From: Boswellia sacra
Lineage: Eukaryota; Streptophyta; Magnoliopsida; Sapindales; Burseraceae
DNA: 64,000 nt
Assembly: GCA_013180625.2 (NCBI GenBank)
Contig: SNVD02014502.1
Location: forward strand, 744,001-808,000
Direction of reading: 5' to 3'
Positions 17,452 through 53,800 of the stretch are shown here, one piece after another. The translations under genes were made by a program, and so were the position numbers. Position 1 is the stretch's first letter; each line of letters begins with the position of its first letter. The notes beneath the pieces are model-generated. The model saw nothing but the letters and a program-made list of their open reading frames with translations, was not told where the DNA came from and ran no database searches.

Positions 17452-17689
17452 CTCCATGTTAGCCCTAAGGCTACATGATAATTTTGATGATAACAATACA
17501 CATTGATTCATTGTGATTTACTAACATGTTTATTTATGTGCAAGAGTAATATCATTGAAATAATTGTAAAATCAAGAAAAGGCTTATTAAAATGAAGTGT
17601 TGAAGCTAAGGAGAAGACTACATGTTAAAGGCACCAAAGTTTAAGAACAAGGTTTGACTCAAGGAATGTGACACATGAGCAATGTTCAA

Positions 17690-18400
17690 TCAATTGGTCA
17701 TATATATCTCTATAGATGTCCAAATGACATGATTCTTGAGCCTTTGGAAAGCTTACTCAATTTATAACATTTCATATGTTTTAAAGAAATTCAAATTTCA
17801 AGTGCAAGGTTGTCCAAATCATCATGCAATTTGAAAGATAAATGGAAGCAGCTGACATGAGTATCGAATACTCTTTTGGACATATCTTGAGCTAGAAATA
17901 CCAAAATGACTTAATTATTATAGCATTGGAAAGAGGACTTAATGAGTCACATTTCATATGTTCTGAATAAATTCAAATTTCAAATGGAAGGCCGACATAA
18001 TTGACATGCAATTTGGTGGACTGACACAGAGAAGAAAAATTAACTCATATGAGCACTGAATGATTTTTTATTCATATCTTGAGCTAGAGATATCCAAATT
18101 ACTTGATTCTTATGGAATTGGAAAGATGATTCAATGGAGCACATTTTATATTCTTTGAAAAAATTCAAATTTCAAATGGAACGCAGACATAATACATATG
18201 CAAGTCGGTGGACTGACATAAGGAAGAAAAATCAAGTCACATGAGCACTGAATAGTGTTTTGGACATATCTTAAGCTAAAAATATCAAAATGACTTGGTT
18301 CTTGATGCGTTGAAAAGCTTATTCAATTTTTCATATCTTTTATGTTTTGTAGATTTTCAAATTTCAAACGAAACATTGACAAAAATGGTAGACTATATTA
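17690..18400 (+). repeat. Four diverged tandem repeats of about 190 bp within the Sirevirus LTR
   Basis: The block CATATCTTGAGCTAGAAAT ... ATTCAAATTTCAAATGGAA recurs with the ATTCAAATTTCAA core at about 17788, 17971, 18163 and 18355. The units have drifted by many substitutions. They lie upstream of the TATA box, in the U3-like part, where tandem repeats can act as enhancers in other LTRs. Confidence 0.7.
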
Positions 18401-18676
18401 CAGTTTTTATGGTGGGCAGAAAATTTGGAGTTATTGTCTTCACTTGATTAAGTTCTTCCCATTTGCCTATAAAAGGAGCCCTTCTCCCATGCATTCAATA
18501 AGCATTTATCAAGCAAAAAAAAAAATAGAAATATCAAATCTAGAGAGCTTTTATATTCTTTATCTACTCTTTGAAGAGAGTTGTATTTTTGTTGTAAAAA
18601 TTTTCTTTGTTCTTGTATTGTGGTGAGAGTGAGATCTTCTTGTAAAGGATAAAAGTTATCCTTGAGAGAACTCTTT

Positions 18677-18900
18677 CCTTGGTGAGTTTGTTCATCAAGA
18701 AGAACTCTTGGTGTGGTGTTATCAAGAGTTGAAGGAAGTTGCCTTGGTGAGGTTGTTCATCAAGAAGAACTCTTGGTGTGGTGTTATCAAAAGTTGAAGG
18801 AAGTTGCCTTGGTGAGGTTGTTCATCAAGAAGAACTCTTGGTGTGGTGTTATCAAGGGTTGAAGAAAAAGTCTTGGTGAGGTTGTTCATCAAGCAAGTTG
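18677..18900 (+). repeat. 65-bp tandem repeat in the LTR leader, about 3.4 copies
   Basis: The unit begins CCTTGGTGAGGTTGTTCATC and recurs at 18677, 18742, 18807 and about 18871 (last copy partial and diverged). Spacing is 65 bp. It lies downstream of the TATA box, thus in the transcribed R/U5 part of the LTR. Confidence 0.85.
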
Positions 18901-20589: not shown

Positions 20590-20594
20590 GAGAC
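20590..20594. repeat. Target-site duplication GAGAC (left) of the Athila-like element
   Basis: GAGAC precedes the left LTR and recurs directly after the right LTR at 31667-31671. Five bases is the gypsy-typical duplication length and fixes the element borders to the base. Confidence 0.9.
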
Positions 20595-21898
20595 TGACAC
20601 ATCCGAAAAAGGATTATCTTCCAAGTATAGGAGTGTCGAAGTAATAAACCCGGTAAGACCGGGGTCGATCCACGAGGAAGGGAATTTAAGCGTCACAAAT
20701 TATAAGCTAAGCAAATGTGATATGGATGGTTCGAAGAGATGACAAGATAATATTAACAAATAGATGAAAATAATTAAAATACACAAGTAAAAGAAATTAA
20801 TACAATAATAATGAGAGTTAAGGTTAGGGGATCCGTCCTTGATATTTCGAATGAGGATAAACAACCCATTTTAGTTATATGAATTATATTTGCTTTGTTA
20901 CCAATATTTATACCACTACTTGTAAAAGGGTTCAAGCATCTAATGTGTCAATCACCATATGTCTACAACAAATCAAGGTTCCTAACTAGATTCATGTCGG
21001 TAAGGAAGAACCATACGATATCTAAAAAGGATCCAAGCATTTGATGTACCAAGGATTGTCGACAATGGATCAAGACCTATACTTTACGAGTGGTGTCAAG
21101 ATTGATTAAGAAAATAAATATAAATCATATAAAATAAACAACACAAGATTACGATTATTAAGCATATACCAAGAGAATCTTTATTCTCATATCAAAGGTT
21201 TCACCCTTTCACCTTAGCAAAAGAGAAATTAGCAAGACATTATAAGAGAAAGAATACAAAATGCAAAAAAAAAAAGAAAAAAGAAATTCATTAATAACAT
21301 TAAAACACAAGAGAGAAACACAATACAAGATCCCAGCAAAGGCCAAGATGCCCTCATGAATCATAAGACACCTCTATTTATACATACATTCAGGGGCAAA
21401 CTTGTCAAATTACAAAGGAATAGTTGTCAAATGTTAGGTGAACTAACTTTGACCTTTAGGATCATTAGGTGCACCATTTTGACCACCAATTTTGACATTG
21501 AAATATTGAGTATTTTAATCACATATCTTCATGAAAGTTGTAGATATTTCTCTCAGATTTCTAGAACATATTGATTTGCACAATTTGGATACGTATTTTG
21601 AGAGATACGGTCTAAATACTGAGGCCTGGTCAAGCTGGGCCGAGACTATAGATGGGTTCACTTCCAGCCCAATTTTGGTCCACTAAGAGCCCAAATTTGA
21701 TGATATTTGTGAATGTAATCTTGTAAATAGAAAGTTATGCCTGTTTTATCGAACCTACATCAAAACCGAAATTAAGAGAAAGTTAATTCAAAGGATGTAA
21801 AGACTACAAATATGCTTAAGTTGAGGAATTTAATGATACTATTAATGCAATATGATGAATTAAACTCTTATTAAGCATACATATTTAAGTGTTCATCA
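20595..21898 (-). repeat. 3' LTR of the Athila-like element
   Basis: It is 1304 bp. On the minus strand it begins TGATGAACAC and ends GGATGTGTCA. It aligns along its length to 30314-31666. It lacks about 47 bp near 21724 (around GTGAATGTAATCTTGTAAATAG) that the 5' LTR retains, which explains the length difference. Confidence 0.92.
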
Positions 21899-21910
21899 CA
21901 CCCTTCAACC
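21899..21910 (-). promoter_or_regulatory. Polypurine tract of the Athila-like element
   Basis: On the minus strand the bases directly before the 3' LTR read GGTTGAAGGGTG, a purine-rich run in the position where plus-strand DNA synthesis is primed. A further GTTAGGGACTAGCAATAAGC stretch upstream resembles the region next to the PPT in related plant elements. Confidence 0.65.
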
Positions 21911-22019
21911 AGCTTATTGCTAGTCCCTAACAATTAAAGCGTTATTATTTAGAAGTGATTTATAGAATTTTACATCAAAGGTGGTCATTATTGCACTCTC
22001 CTTGATTTTATTCAAATAA

Positions 22020-23270
22020 ACAAACTCTCAACCGATTTTTTTATTTTTTTATTTTTTTTTTTTTGATGACTCATGTTCCCTTCAGTCAAGATATCAATAA
22101 ACCTTCTTTTTGTGCTCAGTTGACACATGACTATGGGGCTTATTAGAAATAAGCTATATCGGTTCTAATATTTGTTAAGGCCAACAATTGTAGGTAGGGG
22201 GCATTCATTTATTATATATATATATATATGAAAGAATGCATCTTTAACCCATGTAGCGAGCCTTAGGCTAATGACTCCCAGACCAGTTGGCCTTAGGGCA
22301 TTAGGTGTTAAGACACCCCTTCGAGCTTAACGACTCGGGTTGCCGATACTTTATTTTTGCTTAGAAACTTGTGGATAGTGCAATGTTCAATCCCATTAAG
22401 CTTTCTCCTTAATCCATGTAGCGAGCTTTGGGCCAATAGCTCCCAAACCAGTTGGTCTTAGGGTATTAGGTGTTGAGGCACCCCTCGGGCTTAATTACTC
22501 GAATTAAGGAGGCTACAAGACCAAACTTATCCACAATTGCTCCCTTTTTTTTTTTTTTACTTACTTTCCCCTTCCTTTTGTTATTGTCCTAAACAAAATT
22601 AAAGAACTCAAATGTTGCAACATTTCATTTTGTCACCCACAATCATGCATGAAGGTATGTGTGTGTGTGAAGGAAGGTTCATGAATACTTGCTTAACGAG
22701 TGCATAAGCACACAGTTTATTAAATGATAATGTTGTGAGAGTTCATGGATTTGAATAATTCAAAGTGAAATGAATAAGACCTCCTTGTTATAAAATTCAA
22801 AAATCAAGACTAAATAATATGAAGTTAGCTAAAATGAGTTCACAAAATCAAAATAAGATGACAAATTGGTTAGAATGGGTTTCAAGAGTTCAAACTGGTC
22901 CTCCTTACTCTGCCATTCCTGACCCAGAATGCGTCTCAAGAGGATTTGAACTCCTTACGCCGCACTCTGAATCTAATTACTAACTCGCTTTTTTTTTTCA
23001 AGAAAAAGAAAATTCAAAACATACTTATGACTACTATCCTTCCCCCCTAACCAAATGAAACATTGTCCTCAATGTTTAAATGTAGAGAGATAAAGAATAT
23101 GAGACATTACCTGAAGCTTCTGTTATTCAAGAGAGATGACCTGAAAGACTCATAAAATAAAGCACAAGAAAACATTACAAACGGAGATTCAGATCCAATT
23201 TGCACTTTTTGTTTTGCCCTCCTGCCCAATTAATTTGAGTACTAGCTGGGTTAGGTTCGTACTCTACTGC
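22020..23270 (-). other. 3' non-coding region of the Athila-like element with a 165-bp tandem duplication
   Basis: No gene is visible between the LOG ORF and the polypurine tract. The segment beginning ATGTAGCGAGC occurs at 22251 and again at 22416, giving a diverged tandem repeat of about 165 bp. A TA microsatellite lies at about 22214-22230 and poly-T tracts at 22050 and 22542. Near 23050 the minus strand reads ACATTGAGGACAATGTTTC, a phrase common in 3' regions of plant gypsy elements. Confidence 0.6.
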
Positions 23271-23825
23271 TTATAATTTGTCAAGTAACTCACCAGCAGA
23301 AGTGACAGAAATAAGGATCTATCTCGCCTAATGTGGGATAAAATTTTGTTCTACAGCTGCATCAACAAAACTTATTAAAGAATCAAAGAAATTGTTAACA
23401 TTCGACAAACCTATGGGTTTTTTATGGAGGTTCAGTTGGGCCCAAGAGTCAATTTGAAAAATTTCTTCAAAAGTACCAAAGCCACCTGGTAAAGCAATAA
23501 AGGCATCTGAATTAATGAGCATATGTGTCATGCGTTCATGCATAAAGGAGACTTGTAATTCATGCCCAACCGTTTTTCCAACAATGCTTTCTATAGCCAA
23601 AGCTTTAGGAATAACTCCTAAAACTTGACTACCTCCTACACGTGCAGCTCTTGACACACAACCCATCAACCTGAGGCTACCTCCCCCATAAACCACATGA
23701 ATCTTTCTTTCAGCCAGTAATCTACCAAGATAATTTGCTGCCTCGACAAACTCTTCACTTTTACCCGGTCGAGATCCACAGAATACACATATCTTTTGGA
23801 TTCGATGTTTTGAAGTTCCCTCCAT
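23271..23825 (-). CDS. LOG-family cytokinin riboside 5'-monophosphate phosphoribohydrolase, retrotransposon-borne
   Basis: The open frame 23825-23328 gives 165 residues: KICVFCGSRPGK at about 12-23, the YGGGSLRLMG loop at about 46-55, VIPKAL at 71, MHERMTHM at 94 and the catalytic LPGGFGTFEEIF at about 111-122. LOG enzymes hydrolyse cytokinin nucleotides to free cytokinin bases, and P-G-G-x-G-T-x-x-E is their signature motif. The copy has no intron, whereas plant LOG genes have several. After residue 165 a TAG, then a second TAG two codons on, interrupts a frame that continues with ILISVTSAGELLDKL to a TAA at 23271, matching the usual LOG C-terminus. The protein is thus about 20 residues short unless read through. 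The loop residue after YGGGS is Leu-Arg instead of the usual Val-Gly. It lies in sense between pol and the 3' LTR. Confidence 0.88.
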
Positions 23826-23930
23826 GTTTAAGCAACTCTCTAACTATGTGTGAAGAAGAGAACAAGAGATGTGTTATTTATGGAGTGTAAAAAGGTATGC
23901 TAATGATGACATCCAAATAGGTAGCTCGGC
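23826..23930 (-). promoter_or_regulatory. Leader/promoter-like segment in front of the LOG ORF
   Basis: On the minus strand CCATAAATAACAC (about 23870-23882) is followed by CT-rich CATCTCTTGTTCTCTTCTTC and then the ATG at 23825. This resembles a plant TATA box with a short pyrimidine-rich 5' leader. If the LOG copy came from a spliced transcript, only the leader would have come with it, so the TATA-like match may be chance. Confidence 0.3.
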
Positions 23931-24115
23931 TGCTTGTTGAAAAATTCGACAATTATGCATAGAAATTCAAAAAAAGATGATGAAATAAGACACCATAAGT
24001 CAAACAAAAGATACAAATTCAAAAATGACAGCTATAAGACATCAACATTCAGAAATGATGGTATGCATGCATATGTACAGGTAGTTGTGACTGTGGCTCA
24101 CATCTTCCTCTGGTT

Positions 24116-24691
24116 TTACGTCCAGAAACGGCTTAAACACCTTCTATGAGTTGGGATATGCTTCCCATCCAGTTTTCTTATAAACTGGCAAACAGGGTCG
24201 TTTTGAGTCAGATTCCCAAGACTATAGCGTTCCTGCTCATCTCGGAATTGTGTCCATAAGTTAAAAATTTTACGCTGTACAAGTCCACAAGAATGCGTCT
24301 CAAGAGTCACTCGGATATCATCCAAAGACTCCTTACTCAGTCCATTCTTGATGAACTGTAGTTTATCATCTTGATTATTAGACAAATATCCCAAGGAGCG
24401 GCAACGCTAGTTACAAGTCCATCTTGCACATTTGGGACAAACTTGTAACCTTTTCGCTCTTCGCTTTTTGGCGTAAGAGCTTTTTCCCATACCTGGCATG
24501 TGAGAAACAAGATTATCTGAAAATTCATAAGAAAATCGAACCTTAGCTTCAATTAACCATCTTACTTCGACAGGCATACCCTTACATATCAACATCCTTA
24601 GTCTTTCTGCACGAGCTTTGTAAATTTTGAGCAAATCATTTGGAGGAAGAGAGGGAAAATGTTTATGCAGATTTGAGAGAATGGTGTCCAT
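24116..24691 (-). CDS. Cys-rich ORF of unknown function between pol and LOG
   Basis: A frame starting at ATG 24691 runs 94 codons to a TAG at 24407-24409 and continues in the same frame to 24116, for about 191 codons in all. The first part begins MDTILSNLHKHFPSLPP and has a basic stretch (AKKRRAKRLQ) next to CPKCARWTCN; the second begins RCRSLGYLS. Together they place four cysteines as C-x2-C-x4-C-x3-C across the stop, resembling a small zinc-binding site. The later part is rich in charged residues (IRKLDGKHIPTHRRC). I do not recognise the family. Position and strand match an accessory gene of the element, downstream of pol (which ends at 24808). It could be a diverged env-position ORF or a second captured gene. 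Confidence 0.5.
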
Positions 24692-24807
24692 GCGAGAAAA
24701 GAAAGAAAAATGAATGCAAGGTGAGCAACAGTTTTTAGGGAACTGAAAAACTGACTTTAAAAGTCATGGAGTACCGTATCCGCCACTTCACCGGGAAAAA
24801 TCAATCC

Positions 24808-25282
24808 TTAAAAAGGATCAATTAAAGCAATGGACTCTTCTTTTTGGTCAAAATTTTCAAAGATTGGTTTTAACTGTTGTCCATTAACTTTAAACACATT
24901 ACCATTCTTTGGGTTCTCAATTTCAACTGCTCCATGAAGGAAAACATTTTTAACAATGAAAGGCCCAGTCCAACGAGACCGAAGTTTACCAAGAAACAAA
25001 TGCAATCTTGAATCATACAAAAGAACTTTTTGTGAAGGTTCAAAAGATTTTCTAACCATAAATTTGTCATGAAAAAACCTTCATTTTTTCTTTGTAGATT
25101 TTAGAATTTTCATAAGCCTCATTCCTGATTTCTTCAAGTTCACTCAGTTGGAGTTTTCGTAACTTGCAAGCATCATTCAAGTTTGTGTTAAATGTTTTAA
25201 TGGCCAAATAAGCTTTATGTTCAATTTCCACTGGCAAGTGACAAGGTTTTCCATAAACTAATCTATAAGGAGACATTCCCAA
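24808..25282 (-). pseudogene. Integrase C-terminal region of the Athila-like pol
   Basis: Two overlapping frames (25067-25282 and 24808-25059) carry [20 protein letters not shown] and, after a frameshift, KLRSRWTGPFIVKNVF. These are the conserved Y-R-x-V-Y-G-K...H-L-P and S-R-W-x-G-P-F motifs of plant gypsy integrase tails. The natural end of pol is the stop at 24808. Confidence 0.85.
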
Positions 25283-25319
25283 TGATGTTTTGAAAGCAGT
25301 TTGGTAAGCCCAAAGTGCA

Positions 25320-26309
25320 TCATTGAGTTTTAAAGACCAATCTTTTACGATTTGGGTTAACCGTTTTTTCTAAGATCTGTTTTATCTCCCTATTAGCTAA
25401 TTCAACTTGTCCACTTGTTTGTGGGTGATAAGGTGTAGAAATTTTATGGGTTATTCCATATTTCTTCATTAAAGTTTCAAATGTTTTGTTACAAAAATGT
25501 GTACCCCCATCACTAATAATGGCTCGAGGAATTCCAAATCTACTCAAGATATTCTCTTTCAAGAATTTGACAACTGTTTTGTGGTCATTGTTTCGACATG
25601 GAATTACCTCGACCCATTTTGAAACATAGTCTACTGCAACAAGGATGTACACAAAACCAAATGACGGTGGAAAGAGTCCCATAAAATCAATACCCCAACA
25701 GTCAAAGATTTCAACAACAAGAATGGGATTCAAAGGCATTATGTTTCTTTTTGAAATGGATCCCAACTTTTGACAATTTTCACACGTTTTGCAAAATACA
25801 TGTGCATCTTTAAATAAGGTGGGCCAATAAAATCCACATTGTAAGATCTTAGTAGCTGTTTTTCTAGATGAAAAATGACCTCCACATGCTTCAGAATGAC
25901 AAAAGTTAATGACACTACTTACCTCATTGTCGGGTATGCATCTTCTTATTGTTTGGTCTGGACAATATTTGAACAGATATGGGTCATCCCAAAAAAAATT
26001 TTTTACTTCGGTTAAAAATTTTCTTTTGTCTTGAGCATTCCAATGAGGTGGTATTTTTCCTGTTGCAAGAAAATTTACAATGTTAGCAAACCAAGGTCTA
26101 GTAGCAATGGAAAATAAAAATTCATCAGGAAAAGAATCATTGATAGGTGAAGTTTCAATTAATATCTCTGTCGTTAGTCTTGAAAGATGATCTACAACGA
26201 CATTTTTGGCTCCTTTATTATCCTTTATTGTGATGTTAAATTCTTGGAGCAATAAGATCCACTGTATCAATCTAGGTTTTACATCCTGTTTAGACATTAA
26301 ATATCTCAC
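25320..26309 (-). pseudogene. RNase H end and integrase core of the Athila-like pol
   Basis: A 329-codon frame covers the end of RNase H ([16 protein letters not shown]), the HHCC zinc finger ([20 protein letters not shown] ... CKTCENCQ) and the DDE core: D in WGIDFMG, D in IISDGGTHF and E in QVELANRE. All three catalytic acids are visible. The frame ends by a shift just after [17 protein letters not shown], so the C-terminal part is in another frame. This is the best preserved coding part of the element. Confidence 0.92.
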
Positions 26310-26329
26310 AGCTGCATGGTCAGTGTAAA

Positions 26330-27634
26330 CAATTGTTGGAGAGCCAATTAAATAAGATCAAAATTTGTCCAATGCAAATACTACTGCAAGTAGTTCTTTC
26401 TCAGTTGTTGTATAATTCATTTGTGCATCATTTAAAGTCCTACTTGCATAGTATATTACATAAGGCTTGCCTTCTTTTCTTTGTCCTAAGACAGCACCAA
26501 CGGCATAGTCACTTGCTTCACACATCAATTCAAAAGGTAAGGACCAATCAGGAGATTGCATAATTGGAGCAGTTGTTAAAAGTCTAATTAGTGTATCAAA
26601 GGCATTTTGACATTCTTGAGTCCATTCAAAGGAAGTATCTTTTATTAAGAGGTTACAAAGAGGTTTAGATATAGCACTGAAATTTATTATGAACCTCCTA
26701 TAAAATCCAGCATGCCCTAAGAATGAACGAACCTCTTTAACTGTTTTTGGTGGAGGCAAATGAGAAATTAATTCCACTTTTGCTTTATCCACTTCAATTC
26801 CTTTAGAAGACACCACATGACCTAAAACAATTCCTGAAGTGACCATATAATGACATTTTTCCCAATTCAAAATAAGACATTTTTTTACACACCTTTTTAA
26901 GACTTTTTCTAAGTTTCAAGACAATTCTCAAAAGAATTTCCAAAGACAGTTAAATCATCCATAAAAACTTCTAAACAATGCTCAACCATATCACTGAAAA
27001 TGCTTAACATGCATCTTTGGAAAGTGACTGGAGCATTACAAAGTCCAAAAGGCATTCTCCTAAATGCAAAAGTGCCGAAGGGGCACGTGAATGTGGTCTT
27101 TTCTTGATCTTCGAGTGCAATGGGAATTTGATAATAGCCTGAGTATCCATCAAGAAAGCAGTAGTAGGAGTGTCCTGCTACTCTTTCAAGAATTTGGTCA
27201 AGGAAAGGTAAGAAAAAATGGTCTTTTCTAGTGACAGCATTTAATTTTCTATAATCAATGCACATCCTCCAACTAGATGAGACACGAGTTGGCAATGATT
27301 CACCCTTTTCATTTTTAACTACTGTAATGCCAGATTTCTTAGGTACTACTTATGTAGGGCTTACCCACTTGCTATCAGAAATAGGGTAGATAATTCCCAC
27401 ATCAAGTAGTTTAAGAACTTCAGCCCTAATAACCTCTTTCATATGTGGATTTAATCTTCTTTGAGGTTGTTGGGATGTTTTGGCATTTTCCTCTAAATGT
27501 ATTCTATGTGTGCAAATTAAATGGTTAATGCCTTTTATATCTTTTAAAGTCCACCCGATTGTATTTTTATGCCTTTTAAGCACTTCTATCAACTTACCTT
27601 GTTGCTCGCATGTGAGGGATGAAGAAATTACCAC
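26330..27634 (-). pseudogene. Reverse transcriptase and RNase H of the Athila-like pol
   Basis: Three frames (27350-27634, 26909-27295, 26358-26870) contain in order KLLDVGIIYPISDSKWVSP, RMCIDYRKLNAVTRKDHF, DGYSGYYQI, MPFGLCNAPVTFQRC, the catalytic FMDDLTVFG, FLGHAGFYRRFI and the RNase H pieces CEASDYAVGAVLGQR and TTTEKELLAVVFAL. A TAA near 27350 and a TGA at about 26356 each lie where one C-to-T change would explain the stop, and there is a frameshift at about 26880. The polymerase active site itself is intact. Confidence 0.92.
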
Positions 27635-27643
27635 TGGATATGT

Positions 27644-28462
27644 CTAATTCTCCCCAAGATATGCATATTTTAGTCCTTCAGGTAAGGGCTTCAATTCTAA
27701 CTTGGGAGCTTCATCTTCCTTGCTTTCATTCATTTGCCCCAATTCTTCAAATCTTGATTTTGAGCCTTTTTCCATCACCTGTGCACAATCCAATAAAGAA
27801 CATATATCAGAAAGATCAGACTCTAGTTCCATACTTGATTCTAATGAATTTACTAGACAAGTTTCCAAAGGGTCAGAAGAACTCCCTTTTTGGATGTGAT
27901 CTTCCACAATAGATTCAATTACATTGGCCTCATCAATTTCATCTTCTTCTTCATTTGGTTGTTTGCACATATTAAAAACATTAAGTTCCAATGTCATGTT
28001 CCCAAATGATAGCTTCATGACTCCATTCCTGCAATTAATCAAAGCATTAAAGGTAGCTAGAAATGGACGCCCTAAAATAACAGGAATTGAATTGCTTACT
28101 TCTACTGGTTGTGTGTCCAAGACGATAAAATCCACTGGGTAAATGAATTTATCGACTTGAACTAATACATCTTTTACTACTCCTCTTGGTACTTTAATTG
28201 ATCTATCAGCAAGCAAAAGAGTCACAGAAGTCGGTTTTAACTCATCTAGATTGAGTTTCTGAAAAACCGAATATGGAAGCAAATTCACACTAGCACCAAG
28301 ATCAAGTAAAGCTTGTTCAATTTTATGGTCTCCAATAACACATGAAATTGTAGGACAACCTGGATCCTTATATTTCACTGTATTATTATTTTGAAGAATA
28401 GCACTTACCTGCTCAGCTAGAAGGCCTTCTTTTTCACATTCAATTTTCTTTTCACAGTGCAC
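27644..28462 (-). pseudogene. Protease-containing frame of the Athila-like element
   Basis: A 272-codon frame contains LLDLGASVNLLPYSVFQKL, the Athila-type aspartic protease motif (D-L-G-A-S), then IPVILGRPFLATFNALI, the second conserved flap/helix motif. The C-terminal third is acidic (EEEDEIDEANVIES) and links to RT. A frameshift near 28440 separates it from the upstream frame. Confidence 0.88.
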
Positions 28463-30114
28463 AAGTCTTTCAAAAATTTTGCATAAGAAGGTACCTGTTT
28501 GATCACATCAAGCAAGGGAATGTTGACCTTTACCTGTTTGAAAATTTTAAAGATTTCAGAATTGTGAGTTTGCTTCTTTTGTGTGGCTAATGCTTGAGGA
28601 AATGGAGGCACAGATGAGGATATGGTTTTCTCTTCGCTAGGTGTTGGTTTGGCAACCTCTTCCTGCCCTTTAAAGATCGATTCTTCTTCTTTCTCACAAG
28701 GGTCAGGAATGTATTTTTCAACAATCTTACCATTGCGAAGGGTCATGACTTACTTGGCTTGATCAAAGTAATGGTTACTTGAACTTCCTGCATTTGAGTT
28801 AGATTGATCTTTGGGGTTTTGCAATGTTTGAGAAGGAAATTTTTCCTTTCTCTTGGATGCTAAATGTAGATGCAAATTTTACAAGAGTTTCTGACAAATT
28901 TGCTAATGTTTGAGCAGTTTGACTATTGAAAGTCTCTTGCTTTGTAATGAATGAATGCAATGTCTCTTCAAAGTCATTCCTAGGAGGAGGAGCATATGCA
29001 TGATCATGAGAATCTTGAAAATTTTGTCGTGTTTGAAAAGGGACTTGTGAAGATTGTGTATGATTATCATTTTTTCAACTAAGATTTGAATGATTTCTCC
29101 AATCAGGATTGTAGGTTTGTGAGTATGGATTGTGATTTGGCCTTTTAAAAGTGTTCAAGGCATTGGCTTGCTCATGGAGACATTCCCTAAAGGCAGGCAA
29201 AGTTGGGCAATCATCAGTAGAATGGTCATTGTCATCACAAATGTTACAGACATTTTCTTGAATAGAATTCAATTGACTACTCTTTTTCATTTCTAAAGCC
29301 TCAACTTTTCTAGCTAGGGATGCATATTTGGCTTGAAAGTCATGGTTTTCCCTAAGGTTGTAAATACCTCTATTGAAAGTCGAGGTTTGGGCCTTGCTTG
29401 GTACCTCATAGGTGTCAGCAGTGTCCCAATTTTGTGCCTTTTCTGCTAAGGAATCTAGGAAGTCAAGTGCTTCCTAAGGGTCTTTTTCTTTAAATTCTCC
29501 ATTACACATTAATTCTACTAGTTGCCTATCTTGAGGTGTTAACCCTTCATAGAAGTGTGCAACTACTCTCCAAGTCTCAAAACCATGGTAAGGACAGGTA
29601 TTAAGTAATTCCTTATACCTATCCCAACATTGGTAAAGGGTTTCTCCTTGTTTTTGAGAGAAATCGGAAATTTGTCTTTTAAGAGAATTTGTTCTATGGG
29701 TGGGAAAAATTTTTTTCAAAAATTGTTGTTTCATCTCATCCCATAAACTAATGGAATTCGACCTCAAATTTTGTAGTCATGTTATGGCTTTATCTTTTAA
29801 AGAAAAAGGAAAAAGCTTTAATCTAATGGTGTTTATGCTACAATTTGAGTCAGTGTAGGAGTTACATACTCTTCAAAGTGTTTTAAGTGCGAATATGGGT
29901 TCTCCACATCAAGGCCATGAAAGGTGGGTAGAAGTCGAACAAAACTTGGTTTGAAATTGAAATTGATTGAATCTGGAGGAGAAACTACACAAGATGGTGC
30001 ACGAGTCCTTACCGGATTCATGTAGTCTCTGAGAGTTCTTCGTTGGTTTTGATCATTTTGTTGGGAGCGGTTGTCCCCTTCATCCGTGAATCTTTCCACT
30101 GGATTGTCGGCCAT
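28417..30114 (-). pseudogene. gag of the Athila-like element
   Basis: The gag starts at ATG 30114 (MADNPVERFTDEGDN) and reads through FVRLLPTFHGLDVENPYSHL, SLWDEMKQQFLKKIFP, DRYKELLNTCPYHGFETW, FYEGLTPQDRQLVELM, a zinc knuckle (CNICDDNDHSTDDCPTL) and, nearer the protease, VNIPLLDVIKQVPSYAKFLK. These are Athila gag landmarks in order. The frame is broken at about 29833-29770, by a TAA at 29474, by stops near 29070 and by several between 28750 and 28860. Confidence 0.88.
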
Positions 30115-30286
30115 GTTTTATAAGGAAGATGATGTTTTTCTAACAAGTCTACCACTAGATGTTCGTGACCAAATTTTTATGCAAGAAAGAGAGAAGAAAA
30201 GAGAAGAAAAGATGAACACACAAAAAAAATAAAAAATTTAGATCTAAGAGAAGAGAACACTTACAATTTTGTACGCCAATTTTTTA

Positions 30287-30312
30287 CCTTCCCCGGCAAC
30301 GGTGCCAAAAAC
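30287..30312 (-). promoter_or_regulatory. Primer-binding site of the Athila-like element
   Basis: On the minus strand, one to two bases after the 5' LTR, the sequence reads TTTTTGGCACCGTTGCCGGG. This matches, with one change, the TGGCGCCGTTGCCGGGGA primer site complementary to tRNA-Asp that Athila and related elements use. It fixes the orientation and the LTR border. Confidence 0.85.
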
Positions 30313-30313
30313 T

Positions 30314-31666
30314 TGACACATCCGAAAAAGGATTGTCTCCCAAGTATAGGAGTGTCGAAGTAATAAACCCGGTAAGACCGGGGTCGATCAACGAGGAAGG
30401 GAATTTAAGCATCACAAATTATAAGTTAAGCAAATGTGATATGGATGGTTCGAAGAGATGACAAGATAATATTAACAAATAGATGAGAATAATTAAAATA
30501 CGCAAGTAAAAGAAATTAACACAATAATAATGAGATCTAAGGTTAGGGAATCGATCCTTGATATTTCGAATGAGGATAAACAACCCATTTTAGTTATATG
30601 AATTATATTTGCTTTGTTACCAATATTTATACCACTACTTGTAAAAGGGTTCAAGCATCCAATGTGTCAATCACCATATGTCTATAACAAATCAAGGTTC
30701 TTAACTAGATTCATGTCAGTAAGGAAGAACCATATGATATCTAGAAAGGATCCAAGCATTTGATGTGCCAAGAATTGTCGACAATGGATCAAGACCTCCA
30801 CTTTACGAGTGGTGTCAAGATTGATTAAGAAAATAAATATAAATCATATAAAATAAACAACACAAGATTACGATTATTAAGCACATACCAAGAGAATCTT
30901 TATTCTCATATCAAGGGTTTCACCCTTTTCACCTTAGCAAAAGAGAAATTAGCAAGACATTATAAGAGAAAGAACATAAAATGCAAAAAAAAAAAAGAAA
31001 TTCATTAATAATATTAAAACACAAGAGAGAAACACAATACAAGATCCCAGTAAAGGCCAAGATGCCCTCATGGGTCATAAGGCACCTCTATTTATAGATA
31101 CATTCAGGGGCAAACTTGTCAGATTATAAAGGAATAGTTGTCAAATGTTAGGTGAACTAACTTTGACCATTGGGATCATTAGGTGCATCACTTTTACCAC
31201 CGATTTTGACATAGAAATATTGAGAATTTTAATTATATGTCTTCATGAAAGTTGTATATATTTCTCTCAGCTTTCTAGAACATATTGATTTGCACAATTT
31301 GGATACGTATTTTGAGAGATACGGTCCAAATACTGAAGCCTAGTCAAGCTGGCCTGAGACTGTAGATGGGTTCACTTCCAGCCCAATTTTGATCCACTAA
31401 GAGCCTGAATTTGATGATATTTGTCAAATGCAATCTTGTAGATAATTGAATCATCTTTCCAAAACATTAAGATTTGCACCATTCTGATCTATAAATAGAA
31501 AGTTATGCCTATTTTACCGAACCTACATCAAAACTGAAATTAAGAGAAAGTTAATTCAAATGATGTAAAGACTACAAATATACTTAAGTTGAGGAATTTA
31601 ATGACACTATTAATGCAATATGATGAATTAAACTCTTATTAAGCATACATATTTAAGTGTTCATCA
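30314..31666 (-). repeat. 5' LTR of the Athila-like element
   Basis: It is 1353 bp, TGATGAACAC...GGATGTGTCA on the minus strand, and contains the element's promoter. It keeps a segment near 31440-31490 (AATTGAATCATCTTTCC) deleted from the other LTR. GAGAC follows at 31667-31671. Confidence 0.92.
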
Positions 31667-31671
31667 GAGAC

Positions 31672-43639: not shown

Positions 43640-44104
43640 TGATTTAGTCATGGCAGTGATGGATCATTTGTCCAAAATGGCATATTTTGTGAATGAGATT
43701 GGGTTATTATTCAGAGAAGTTTTGAGATTATATAGCCTCCAAGAAGTTTGGTTTCTGATAAAGATGTGAAATTTGTTAGTTTCTTTGGGAGAGAACTATG
43801 AAAACATTTGGCTACTGATCTTAAAATCAGTTCAGCTTACCATCCACAAACGAGTGGGCAAGCTGACGTAGTTGTTGGCAATATGATATGCAGCATAGCA
43901 GGTGAAGTGCCAAAGCAATGGGATGAAAAACTAGCTCAAGCAGAGTTTGCTTATAACTCTACGGTCAACCTTGCCATTAGAAAAAGCCCTGTTGCCATTA
44001 TGTATACCAGGTTGCCTAACCATATTGTTGACCTTGCAAATATTGCCAAGCCACATAGTAAACCAGCTGAACAAATGGCTAGAGATTTTGTTAAGATGCT
44101 GTAG
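43640..44104 (+). pseudogene. Integrase fragment of the gypsy relic
   Basis: The translation shows VMDHLSKMAYFV and, at 43808-44104, [31 protein letters not shown] and KSPVAIMYTRLP. These are the end of the DDE core (A-Y-H-P-Q-T-x-G-Q-x-E, with the usual catalytic Glu here replaced by Asp-Val) and the A-E-F-A-Y-N and S-P-F-x-x-x-Y-G motifs. The first catalytic Asp and the zinc finger are missing. Confidence 0.8.
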
Positions 44105-44122
44105 TGTCGGAGGTTTTGATTC

Positions 44123-44632
44123 AAAAGTATATAAAGTAAGTGTTGATGTTCATCACAGGAAGAAAATTTTTAATGTTGGTGATTTAGTAATGATCCATCT
44201 CAGGCATGAGAGGGTTCTTGTTGGCATTTATAATAAGTTACAACCTCGAAAGTTTGATCCCTTTCCAATTTTGAATTGCATCAAGGACAATGCTTACGTT
44301 TTGGACCTTCCTTGTTACTTGGGAATCTCTCCCATTTTTAATGTTGCAATTGCAAATATATATGTTTTCCATCCACCAAAAGTATATAAAGTAAGTGTTG
44401 ATGTTCATCACAGGAAGAAAATTTTTAATGTTGGTGATCTAGTAATGATCCATCTCAGGCATGAGAGTGTTCTTGTTGGCATTTATAATAAGTTACAACC
44501 TAGAAAGTTTGATCCCTTTCCAATTTTGAACTGCATCAAGGACAATGCTTACGTTTTGGACCTTCCTTGTTACTTAGGAATCTCTCCCATTTTTAATGTT
44601 GCAATTGCAAATATATATGCTTTCCATCCACC
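44123..44632 (+). repeat. In-frame 255-bp tandem duplication in the integrase tail
   Basis: Units 44123-44377 and 44378-44632 are 255 bp each and differ at 6 positions by my count. Each encodes 85 residues starting KVYKVSVDVHHRKKIFNVGD and including VMIHLR, PRKFDPFPIL and AYVLDLP, which is the chromodomain-proximal D-x-V-M-V-x-L-R...K-x-x-P-F tail of gypsy integrase. The frame continues through both units from 43947 to 44648. The duplication is recent compared with the decay of the rest of the element. Confidence 0.9.
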
Positions 44633-45050
44633 GGACGAGAGTTATTGAACTCGAGTCAAGTTCTTTAGAGCGGAGGGAACTGATGCAGTGAAGATTGTCT
44701 CAGCCAATTTTATTTTCTATATCCATCTCTTTTAACTCCTATTTGTTTGTTTTGTTAATTTACTTTTTTACTCATTGCTGCACACCGTTTCGTATAAAGT
44801 TCGGCGGCATATAAATAGCTACACTCCTATATTTGGAACAATTTTTTTTTCTGCCGGTTTACCAAATCATGAATAGAACATGTTTCCTCTGCTAAAGTTT
44901 GAAACGGATCTGGTTTTCTTCACTTGGGTTCCTTGATTTTTCTCTAACTTCTACGCCACGACGGGATTCTCATCCACTCCAATTCCTAGAGTTCGGTATA
45001 GTGCGGGAAATCTCTCTCACCACCTGCTCCACCTCATTAAAATCTGACAT

Positions 45051-50800: not shown

Positions 50801-53800
50801 AGAATTAATAACCACAACTGGGATTTTTATTACAAGCAGGATTAACAGACTAGGTGAATTCTCAACTTTTTTTTAATAACTGAAGAAACCATATTAAATC
50901 AGAAAAGATTCGCACAAAGTGGACTAGCTGAAAACTACAACAGAAAAAAATATATATATATATAGGGAAGGATATTCACCAAAAACAATAGAAAAGAAAG
51001 TCATGAAACCAAGTATAAACAGCTCTTCCCTGGACAACCACTGACTATGTTAAGTATTGATGATTAAGACATTGTTAAACAAATGAATTTTATCAAAGGC
51101 TCTTAAGTCTGGACAAGCAAGAGACGAAGCTTATAATGATAAATTGTTGATCAAGAATAGACAAAGCCTAAAAGGACAGTTTATTTTTTGTGCAATTTCC
51201 AGATAATTCCGAAGAATTTTTACTGAATTCATTTGCAAATATAAGATTGACGATTAAGAAAGTGTAAACATGATAGATATCTCAATGCTTGATGCATGAG
51301 AACAATGATTCATGGAAGGTTACCTGTATGATATCAGCATTACCCTTTGCAACCCCAGAAGCAACTGTTCCAATACCTGCTTCTGCCACAAGCTTTACAG
51401 ATACCTTAGCTTTAGGGTTGACCTGTTTGTTGGGAAAATTTGAGAGATCACTCTTATCAGTACTCTGGGAATAACATAGTTTATTTAAGGAGATAAAGAA
51501 AGAGCAGATGACTACCTGATGAAGGTCAAAGATCAACTGGGCAAGATCTTCTATGGAATATATGTCATGATGAGGGGGTGGAGATATAAGTGGAACACCA
51601 GGCTTAGAATTTCTCAACCTTGCGATGTATGCACTAACTTTTTTCCCAGGCAATTGACCACCTTCACCAGGCTTTGCGCCTTGGGCAATTTTGATTTCTA
51701 ACTGATCAGCATTGACCAAGAATGTTGGAGTTACACCAAACCGACCTGAAGCAACCTGAAAGTACGCAATTTTTTTTCCACTTAGGCATGGTGCACAATA
51801 AATGCACGAGTAAAAACCTATCTTTATACCGATCTTTCCTTCTAAAAGAAAATCTACAGACTTCTGCCAATAATGACCATGACTTTTAGTCTTGAACTTC
51901 CATAAATCAAGAATAGCATTGCATCTTGTATTTTCAACAATAAATAAACAGACTTCGGGCCTTAGAGCTACAATTTAGACAGTAAAAATAAGGTTAAAAA
52001 AACAAGGTAACTATATACACTCATTCAGAAGCAAAACTGAGTGCCATTACCTGCTTAATAGCACTTGTAGCAGTATCCCCATTTTGAAGACCTTTGAGAT
52101 GTGGTAGTGTTGGAGAGTACCCATCTTCAACATCTGTAAGTGGGCTCCAGCGAATGGGGTCCTGGATTAAAACAGCAGTATTAACACAAAAATTTATATT
52201 GAAAATGTTTCAGAGTCGACACTTGAACAAAGTGACATGCTTCAAGATTACTGTGCACCACAGAGCACATAAATATTGAACGAACTACCTCACCACCTTC
52301 TCCCGAATTTGATTTTCCTCCTATTCTATTCATTGCAATAGCAATTGCTTCATGAGTTTCTCTAGAAATTGCACCAAGTGACATTCCACCAGTGCAAAAC
52401 CTTTGAACAATAGCTGCAGCAGGTTCAACCTTCCCCAAAGGAATTGGAGCACGATCACTTTTGAACTCAAGAAGGTCACGAAGAACCTGATGTGATAATT
52501 TTCAAAACAAATAATATAAATCACAAATAACTTCAGAAAGTTGATTATTAGATTCAAGAAAATTTTCTGTACTCACGTTCACAGGCCGATTGGCTAAATG
52601 CTGCTGATAAATTGAAAAAGCACTTTCACTTTTTTGGCGAACTGCTTTATGAAGTAACTTTGACATCTCTGGGTTGTTTCCATGATACTCACCTTTAGAT
52701 AAAGACATTCAAAAAATATTATGAGATAAGGAAAAGGCCTATATAAGCTTAACAACAATAAAAACTTAAATTTTCAATTGGGCAATGCATGTTTTGGTTA
52801 TGCTATAAATAATTTGTATCAATTATAACTACAGCCAAATACTTATTCACTTAATGCTAGATAAATTTACCGAAAGTTTGACTTTTTCGTAGATATTGGT
52901 TTCCCATGAATTTAAAAAATTAATTTTTAAAGCACTTACAACTACAATAACCAGCAAATATGAACATGTTTGGCAACAGATGATACCTCCAGGTCTAAAT
53001 TGTATAAACCCATAATTTTCTAGTCTTTTAGCTGTATCCTCGGAAAAAGCCTTCACCCAGAAAGACAAAGTCTCTCTTGCAAGCTGAGAGAAAGTAAGAT
53101 TTCAGAACCAAAAAAAAAAAAAAGTCAATTGTACAGTGGGACCTTCACAATTAAGAAAAAAGATTAAAGAAAGTTCAAGATCACTTAAATTTTTCTAAGC
53201 CATACGAGATTATCATTCTGTTTATCCTAATTTTTCTGAAAAGCAGTTTCAAAAGTTTGTATTTCTCTTCCAAACTAATAGTCAATATACCAGGCCTACC
53301 ACCATCTTAAAATTTAGGAGAAATGAGCAAGGAATCATTAATTGATAGAAACATGGACCATCAAGATAACAAAATAATTGTGGTAGTTCAATGGTCTGCC
53401 TTGTTTGCAAATAAAATACACTACAACCTTTCCTCCAGTAATTTTTTACTGAAACAAGGTAAATCATTGCCTAATATTTTTGAAGTGAAGACTGCACACA
53501 AACATATTATATGTAAACAGTCTTAAACTGGTCAAATATTATGATTGTAGATATAACTGCATAAGAAATTTCTCATATCACGCAAAATAAGAAAATATAA
53601 ATATTTCAATTTGAAGACCAACAGCTCGACTTTTGGAGCATTCTGACCTCATCAAAACTTAATCCGCCAATATTTGATACACTCCCAGAAAATGCGAGAT
53701 CAACAATCTCTTTCCCTAATCCATAAACCTCAAATATCTGTGCACCACAATAACTAAATACAAAAGGCCAGTAAGTCAATCTGTCTATATAATTGACATA

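Follow-up and report, generated by a model that had tools for sequence, protein, structure and literature searches.

Plant long terminal repeat (LTR) retrotransposons are usually viewed as gag-pol machines that are restrained by small RNAs. YgdH/LOG domains have been recorded in consensus sequences of Gypsy LTR elements of Citrus and Populus (PMC9289625, citing Steinbauerova et al. 2011), orchid Gypsy elements contain an AlkB m6A demethylase (PMC9289625), and Athila-type elements hold extra open reading frames (ORFs) between pol and the 3' LTR (eORF-3'F; PMC6317226, PMC7264820). In this work, we analyzed a 64,000-nt stretch of the Boswellia sacra genome (contig SNVD02014502.1, positions 744,001 to 808,000; hereafter the window), in which positions 20595-31666 are an Athila-like Ty3/gypsy element on the minus strand whose pol and 3' LTR are separated by a LOG gene in the element's own orientation. 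We show that this element belongs to an Athila-like lineage with a cassette between integrase and 3' LTR, made up of a carlavirus-type zinc-finger gene and a LOG-derived gene. Both cassette genes are intronless, have ratios of nonsynonymous to synonymous substitution (dN/dS) well below 1 between element families, and are present in pol-less derivatives.

The element resembles each of the described systems in part. With the Citrus and Populus elements it shares a LOG-family domain within a plant Ty3/gypsy LTR element, but the mention of those elements is a brief one within a domain screen, which says nothing there of a second accessory gene, an added tail, an altered pocket, tests of selection or derivatives that lack pol (PMC9289625). 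The orchid elements are alike in keeping a noncanonical enzyme with a proposed bearing on host control; they differ in the enzyme itself, and their description does not mention a viral-type partner (PMC9289625). The extra ORFs of Athila-type elements have the same position, orientation and layout, but those of the window match a viral cysteine-rich protein (CRP) and LOG, and no Athila ORF-1 or env-like domain was found by Pfam in the window's two extra frames. Plant LTR elements with extra ORFs, and LOG domains in such elements, are already known; the viral-type partner, the altered pocket and the EAR-like tail described below appear to be new, as word matching in the open-licence literature found no published report of them in such elements. 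The primer binding site (PBS), which we take to be of the tRNA-Asp type, is presumably of a type common to Athila and the window element. Together with the layout, it makes the Athila-like assignment plausible. An extra aRH domain is a mark of the Tat lineage (PMC6317226); Pfam listed RT_RNaseH models alone in the window element, whose broken frames could hide a second domain.

The positions of all features are given in Table 1. Both LTRs have TG..CA termini, with a GAGAC duplication on either side. They differ by 52 transitions and 16 transversions over 1302 aligned sites, a Kimura two-parameter distance of 0.055 that would presumably correspond to an age of about 2-4 million years at the plant rates we assume. 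In element sense, the domains recognized by Pfam follow the Ty3/gypsy order (gag, protease, reverse transcriptase, RNase H, integrase), all on the minus strand and in separate frames interrupted by stops. The initial annotation described a complete element with two LTRs, the GAGAC duplication, a PBS, a polypurine tract (PPT), gag-pol and an intronless sense LOG before the 3' LTR. Each of these parts was located, and completeness holds for the structure (LTRs, target-site duplication, PBS, gag-pol order) but not for the coding frames, which are broken by stops. The window copy is an aged, decayed member of one of the two element families that we compared, family B, with which it shares LTR stretches and a LOG that reads alike.

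The LOG frame of the window copy begins with an ATG at 23825 and runs without an intron to a stop at 23175-23177. It is homologous across all 216 codons, with 67-68% to three relatives, and its open part of 171 aa matches Pfam Lysine_decarbox (E 1.4e-32) and LDcluster4 (2e-10). The full family length first ascribed to this gene holds for homology, though three premature stops had been overlooked. The PGGxGTxxE motif noted earlier is indeed present, as are the catalytic Arg and Glu, and the pocket positions are Met and Gln. Downstream of the premature stops the sequence encodes a tail, LDLNLRL, of the LxLxL type. Neither this EAR-like tail nor the viral-type partner gene had been seen in the initial annotation.

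The first part of the viral-type frame between integrase and LOG matches Carla_C4 (E 9.5e-7) and Viral_NABP (3e-4, under the curated cut-off), and the in-frame stop of the window copy falls within the zinc finger. With this first part as query, 142 of 146 candidate proteins reached E<=0.01; many have a length of ~182 aa, and they come from plant genomes and other contigs, those named being from Xanthoceras, Rhamnella, Striga and Orobanche. In an alignment of 43 sequences (42 protein matches and the window piece), PF01623 was recognized in 43 and PF05515 in 42, and in the relatives a C-x2-C-x4-C-x3-C finger is placed after a basic stretch. Profile, basic motif and zinc finger thus point to a carlavirus-type CRP/nucleic-acid-binding protein (NABP). 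A basic stretch followed by a four-cysteine finger is also the arrangement in carlavirus CRPs (p12 of chrysanthemum virus B (CVB) and its kin; PF01623, PF05515), whereas the element protein is encoded by an LTR retrotransposon, is 182 aa long and has a conserved C-terminal half of its own, the Pfam matches spanning ~30-85 residues. The p12 protein of CVB has been described as a silencing suppressor and nuclear activator (PMC7588395). Viral contig scans found no relative of the viral-type protein; for LOG, one scan gave none and the other 25 distant LOG-like loci of 23-45% identity. Elsewhere, a viral-type protein (P0003) and a LOG (P0127), each from an 8723-base contig, are probably encoded on the same contig.

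The two genes occur together throughout the B. sacra genome, which was searched as a 638.6-Mb assembly. With the element-type LOG P0121 as query, the best 150 of 14392 candidates were all near full length and 108 of them had no stop; with the Arabidopsis-type LOG3 P0241, the best 150 of 13083 were mostly 227-aa open frames, 142 without a stop. Combined, the two lists, whose places do not overlap by eye and which are score-ranked and so biased to intact copies, contain 300 near-full-length single-frame LOG copies, 250 of them stop-free. No spliced host LOG gene was among the best 150 of 13083 rows for the LOG3 query, because intronless copies occupy all 150. A copy fetched from that list (L087) has the altered pocket and the LxLxL tail too. 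In 30 of 30 loci retrieved with the P0121 search, a match to the viral-type gene directly precedes LOG, and in L035 and L049 this match is split in two. We also fetched 11 copies of family B (rows at 71-72%) and nine of family A, seven of which (L070-L076) repeat places among the 30 loci with longer flanks. Stretches of the window's LTR were found next to LOG in each of the 11 family-B copies, the weakest being 518 nt at 78% (L067).

It had been proposed from the window alone that LOG is element cargo retained through an element family, and a search for other copies flanked by the same LTRs had been suggested as a check. Such copies were found, and the constant upstream neighbor, the LTR stretches and dN/dS well below 1 all uphold the proposal. 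The alternative then considered, that no other LTR copies contain LOG and that the segment has its own poly-A tail and duplication, did not hold: by eye, one flank alignment contained neither a poly-A tail nor a private duplication at LOG. The intronless and broken LOG of the window would also fit a processed pseudogene, derived from a host LOG, that by chance landed once in this element, but the same place and the same upstream neighbor in many copies, together with nearest relatives that are element-type LOGs and not LOG1/3, leave this explanation with practically no probability, and we rejected a processed retropseudogene of this one copy on the former ground.

Selection was evaluated by the Nei-Gojobori method on single pairs, with bootstrap, and on pooled pairs, leaving out sequences that lacked a clean start or a clean end. 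In a single pair of families A and B, LOG gave a dS of 0.62, a dN of 0.20 and a ratio of 0.31 (0.20-0.48), and the viral-type gene a ratio of 0.19 (0.11-0.30). Single pairs of the viral-type gene with L026, a relative dealt with below, gave 0.16 (0.09-0.25) for A and 0.20 (0.11-0.32) for B, and the window copy against L026 gave 0.22 for the viral-type gene and 0.10-0.17 for integrase, the latter at dS >1. For pooled pairs, in which L070-L076 are counted twice within A and between A and B (the single-pair ratios being unaffected), LOG gave 0.33 between A and B (418 pairs), 0.36 within A (703 pairs; 38 of 39 sequences, 31 distinct), 0.15 within B (55 pairs, 11 of 11) and 0.28 for the window against B; the viral-type gene gave 0.25 between A and B (204 pairs) and 0.32 within A (34 of 39 sequences). 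The test across element-borne LOG copies that the initial annotation had suggested thus yields values well below 1 between families. Taken with the mostly broken copies of the leader-picked sample described below, we read this as selection acting on the jumping lineage while resident copies decay.

In the relative L026 both an integrase and an unbroken viral-type gene are present, with a DNA similarity to the window of 75-76%. By blastn, its positions 1665-2420 correspond to window 24798-24071 and 2534-2613 to window 23115-23038; between these matches lie ~113 nt with no detected similarity, versus 955 nt in the window. No LOG match was found there in L026, a contig that stops before any LTR, so that a LOG elsewhere in the element is possible, nor in the record set behind it, in a search that had no positive control. 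Because L026 has the viral-type gene without LOG at this place, LOG is a separate block that was gained or lost. The contig itself (DAIEQH010000041.1) is a plant-type retrotransposon sequence in a metagenome-assembled genome of Candidatus Nomurabacteria, and is likely a contamination of that public genome.

Moreover, five of the 11 family-B copies (L057, L059, L062, L064, and L065) are without most or all of the protease-to-integrase region. They are 93-95% alike to L057 over ~7.5 kb, with LTR stretches (793-889 nt) 98-99% alike, and the breakpoints in the two copies compared, from 28591 to 24804 or 24798 in window numbering, agree within 6 nt. LOG is open in all five, which were chosen by LOG score, and the viral-type frame has ~200 codons in four and is shorter in L059. 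We infer that these are young non-autonomous derivatives mobilized in trans. Plant elements often carry captured gene fragments as mere passengers, and LOG could likewise be a functionless hitch-hiker that is copied with the element; the window copy has no intact LOG, and neither do eight of ten copies that were picked by the leader ahead of the viral-type gene and independently of LOG (10 of the 100 listed among 874 leader matches). Against this, the between-family dN/dS is 0.31 at a dS of 0.6, LOG is present in pol-less derivatives, its tail is conserved, and element-type proteins occur in Xanthoceras, Reevesia, Diplodiscus, Populus and Parasponia, all of which makes a passive LOG very unlikely.

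The LOG of these elements differs from that of plants at its substrate pocket. We compared 120 element-type with 120 LOG1/3-type proteins, using P0241 numbering and equating pocket residues by motif position. The catalytic R102 and E125 occur together in 114 of the 120 element-type proteins, and PGGxGTxxE plus the Arg in 99. The pocket residues K103 and E128 are present in all 120 LOG1/3-type proteins but as K+E in three of the element-type ones; both are replaced in 116, most commonly by M+Q (46), I+Q (30) and L+H (30). In CgLOG, AtLOG3 and CpLOG, the Lys and Glu that occupy these places in the motif are described as lining the proposed prenyl pocket (PMC4979012), and an exchange of the Lys after the catalytic Arg for Ala is reported to have abolished activity in the type-II LOG CgLOGII (PMC5379747). 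The window copy is LOG by its Pfam domain, and the predicted structure of a relative, P0124, matches LOG3 2a33 (TM 0.87 by target) and AMP-bound LOGs, the tail being of low confidence. Thus the element LOG would share with plant LOG1/3 (2a33), a cytokinin riboside 5'-monophosphate phosphoribohydrolase, the fold, the phosphoribose motif and the catalytic Arg/Glu; it differs in its pocket, where Lys is mostly Met, Ile or Leu and Glu mostly Gln or His, in a basic and LxLxL tail, and in being intronless. Conserved catalytic residues, a LOG-like fold and dN/dS <1 are what a working LOG would have, by which the element would increase active cytokinin, and with it cell division, wherever it is expressed. 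However, the rarity of the K+E pair, the proposed role of the replaced residues and the loss of CgLOGII activity speak against such an enzyme, which we regard as unlikely, and the label of cytokinin-activating gene, as first given to this LOG, is doubtful.

The second change is at the C terminus. An LxLxL motif ends 79 of 89 full-length element-type proteins and none of 113 LOG1/3-type ones, and a basic cluster, which in the element-type proteins precedes the LxLxL, is present in 78 of the 89 versus one of the 113. LxLxL is an EAR consensus, LDLELRL being the EAR of AtZP1 (PMC9956375). In a tree of 53 rows, one branch (99/94) splits 32 element-type from 19 LOG1/3-type proteins, a grouping that is partly built in, as the element-type rows were picked by similarity; the bootstrap is unsettled and other plant LOG classes are represented by one LOG8 stretch. 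The window LOG groups with P0122 and P0125 (97/90), so that its closest relatives in the phylogeny that had been asked for are element-type LOGs, away from LOG1/3. Three K+E proteins without the LxLxL tail (P0223, P0123, and P0235) branch off separately from the remaining 29 element-type rows (99/98), yet on the element side. Such canonical, tail-less proteins on the same side of the tree could mean that a paralogue of LOG in the host acquired both the pocket change and the EAR-like tail and was then captured once or several times, the element doing nothing but spread it; the annotation of certain element-type proteins as single genes, e.g., Populus LOGL10, fits this too. We consider this origin rather unlikely, if somewhat less so than a working cytokinin-activating LOG.

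It seems to us somewhat more probable than not that the two-gene cassette of this lineage acts on the host cell in the element's favor. An element must evade small-RNA silencing and reach the germ line in a plant that has no set-aside germ line, and the cassette would act on the host cell to benefit transmission of the element. Firstly, the viral-type protein would most likely blunt RNA silencing and/or act in the nucleus, by analogy with carlavirus p12. Secondly, the protein derived from LOG has most likely ceased to be an ordinary enzyme of cytokinin activation; it would retain a nucleotide-hydrolase fold and the catalytic Arg/Glu with a remodeled base pocket, and its conserved basic and LxLxL tail would direct it to the nucleus and there to TOPLESS, a corepressor. 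It may use a different nucleotide as its substrate, recruit a corepressor, or do both. The full form of this proposal, which we put forward tentatively and hold to be less probable than its alternatives taken together, is a two-protein host-reprogramming kit, with a plant-virus-type silencing suppressor or nuclear regulator and a nuclear, TOPLESS-recruiting LOG with a new nucleotide pocket, whose genes are transcribed or spliced apart from gag-pol and are selected even in pol-less copies moved in trans.

Several observations weigh against a cassette that acts on the host. The structure model of the viral-type protein is poor (pLDDT 60, pTM 0.29), which leaves sequence as the sole basis for its carlavirus homology. 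Within family B the viral-type gene has a pooled dN/dS of 0.69 (15 pairs, 6 of 11 copies) and looks relaxed. Copies for dN/dS and for family B were chosen by LOG protein score, so that intact frames are partly selected and within-family ratios lean low. In the leader-picked sample, nine of ten copies retain a LOG remnant, but two have an intact LOG frame and three an intact viral-type frame. The element-type tail conforms to the LxLxL consensus and is EAR-like, but the motif is short and its function putative. Finally, gag is one long open frame in two of the five pol-less copies (L057 and L064) and is split in the other three.

One lineage thus keeps two extra proteins under apparent selection, a homolog of a viral suppressor and a hormone enzyme with two coordinated changes. 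It makes testable the idea that transposons, like viruses, bear counter-defense and host-reprogramming genes, and that a LOG enzyme was turned to a new use. In addition, some element-type LOGs have entered annotations as genes of the plant itself (in Reevesia, in Diplodiscus and, as LOGL10, in Populus), which may inflate LOG families and mislead cytokinin studies.

The cassette also contains conserved non-coding sequence. Families A and B share a conserved TATAAATA-like stretch ahead of the LOG start codon, which suggests a separate promoter for LOG. The 26-nt core of the leader ahead of the viral-type gene, in the form found in family A and several B copies and one base off in the window, has 874 exact matches in the genome, versus none for the reversed control. 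By a loose pattern, the leader and the trailing block were each found in 51 of 52 sources (the window, L026 and L027-L076, seven of them second fetches of a place already included), and both are conserved in L026 too, where dS is ~0.9-1. They can fold as small hairpins; the downstream hairpin has a single compensatory pair, a score equaled or exceeded in 85 of 500 shuffles, and the upstream hairpin has none, a covariation too weak for a conserved RNA structure, and Rfam gave no match across the window at gathering score. The two blocks are possibly packaging, splicing or translation signals.

Table 1. Coordinates, in the window, of the element, its cassette and the conserved non-coding stretches.
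Feature	Position	Strand	Basis
Target-site duplication GAGAC, left copy	20590..20594	.	sequence
3' LTR (element sense)	20595..21898	-	LTR alignment, TG..CA ends
Short purine-rich tract (PPT-like), abutting 3' LTR	21899..21910	-	by eye
Block containing LOG, absent from relative L026	23116..24070	-	blastn
Intronless LOG-derived gene of 216 codons + stop; last quarter interrupted by three in-frame stops; ending KLDLNLRL	23175..23825	-	ORFs, Pfam, alignment
Open part of LOG frame, 171 aa stop to stop, + stop codon	23328..23843	-	ORFs, Pfam
TATA-like stretch, CATAAATA here, TATAAATA in aligned family-A copies; starts 57 nt upstream of LOG ATG	23875..23882	-	alignment, 13 sequences
Conserved non-coding block after viral-type gene	24071..24151	-	blastn, pattern search
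Viral-type nucleic-acid-binding gene; relatives have a basic motif + C-x2-C-x4-C-x3-C; in-frame stop 24407-24409 here	24152..24691	-	Pfam, alignment
Conserved non-coding leader ahead of viral-type gene	24720..24798	-	alignment, pattern search
Integrase region: H2C2 zinc finger, rve core, C-terminal part; broken; RNase H end inside upper edge	24811..26357	-	ORFs, Pfam
RNase H region, broken	26361..26915	-	ORFs, Pfam
Reverse transcriptase region, broken	26912..27349	-	ORFs, Pfam
Aspartic protease region	27647..28507	-	ORFs, Pfam
gag region, broken; Pfam match within 29477-29776	29477..30117	-	ORFs, Pfam
PBS-like TGGCACCGTTGCCGGGG, 6 nt inward of 5' LTR	30291..30307	-	by eye
5' LTR (element sense)	30314..31666	-	LTR alignment, TG..CA ends
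Target-site duplication GAGAC, right copy	31667..31671	.	sequence

Outside the element, a glutamate synthase domain (PF01645, E 5.2e-52) is encoded on the minus strand at 51282-51974, and probably belongs to a host gene near the element. At 43935-44648 there is a Tf2-1-like SH3 domain, perhaps what is left of another Ty3/gypsy element, together with a tandem duplication of 255 nt whose copies are 98% alike. Further tandem repeats are present at 17670-18427 (~192 nt, four copies) and 18674-18868 (65 nt, three copies).

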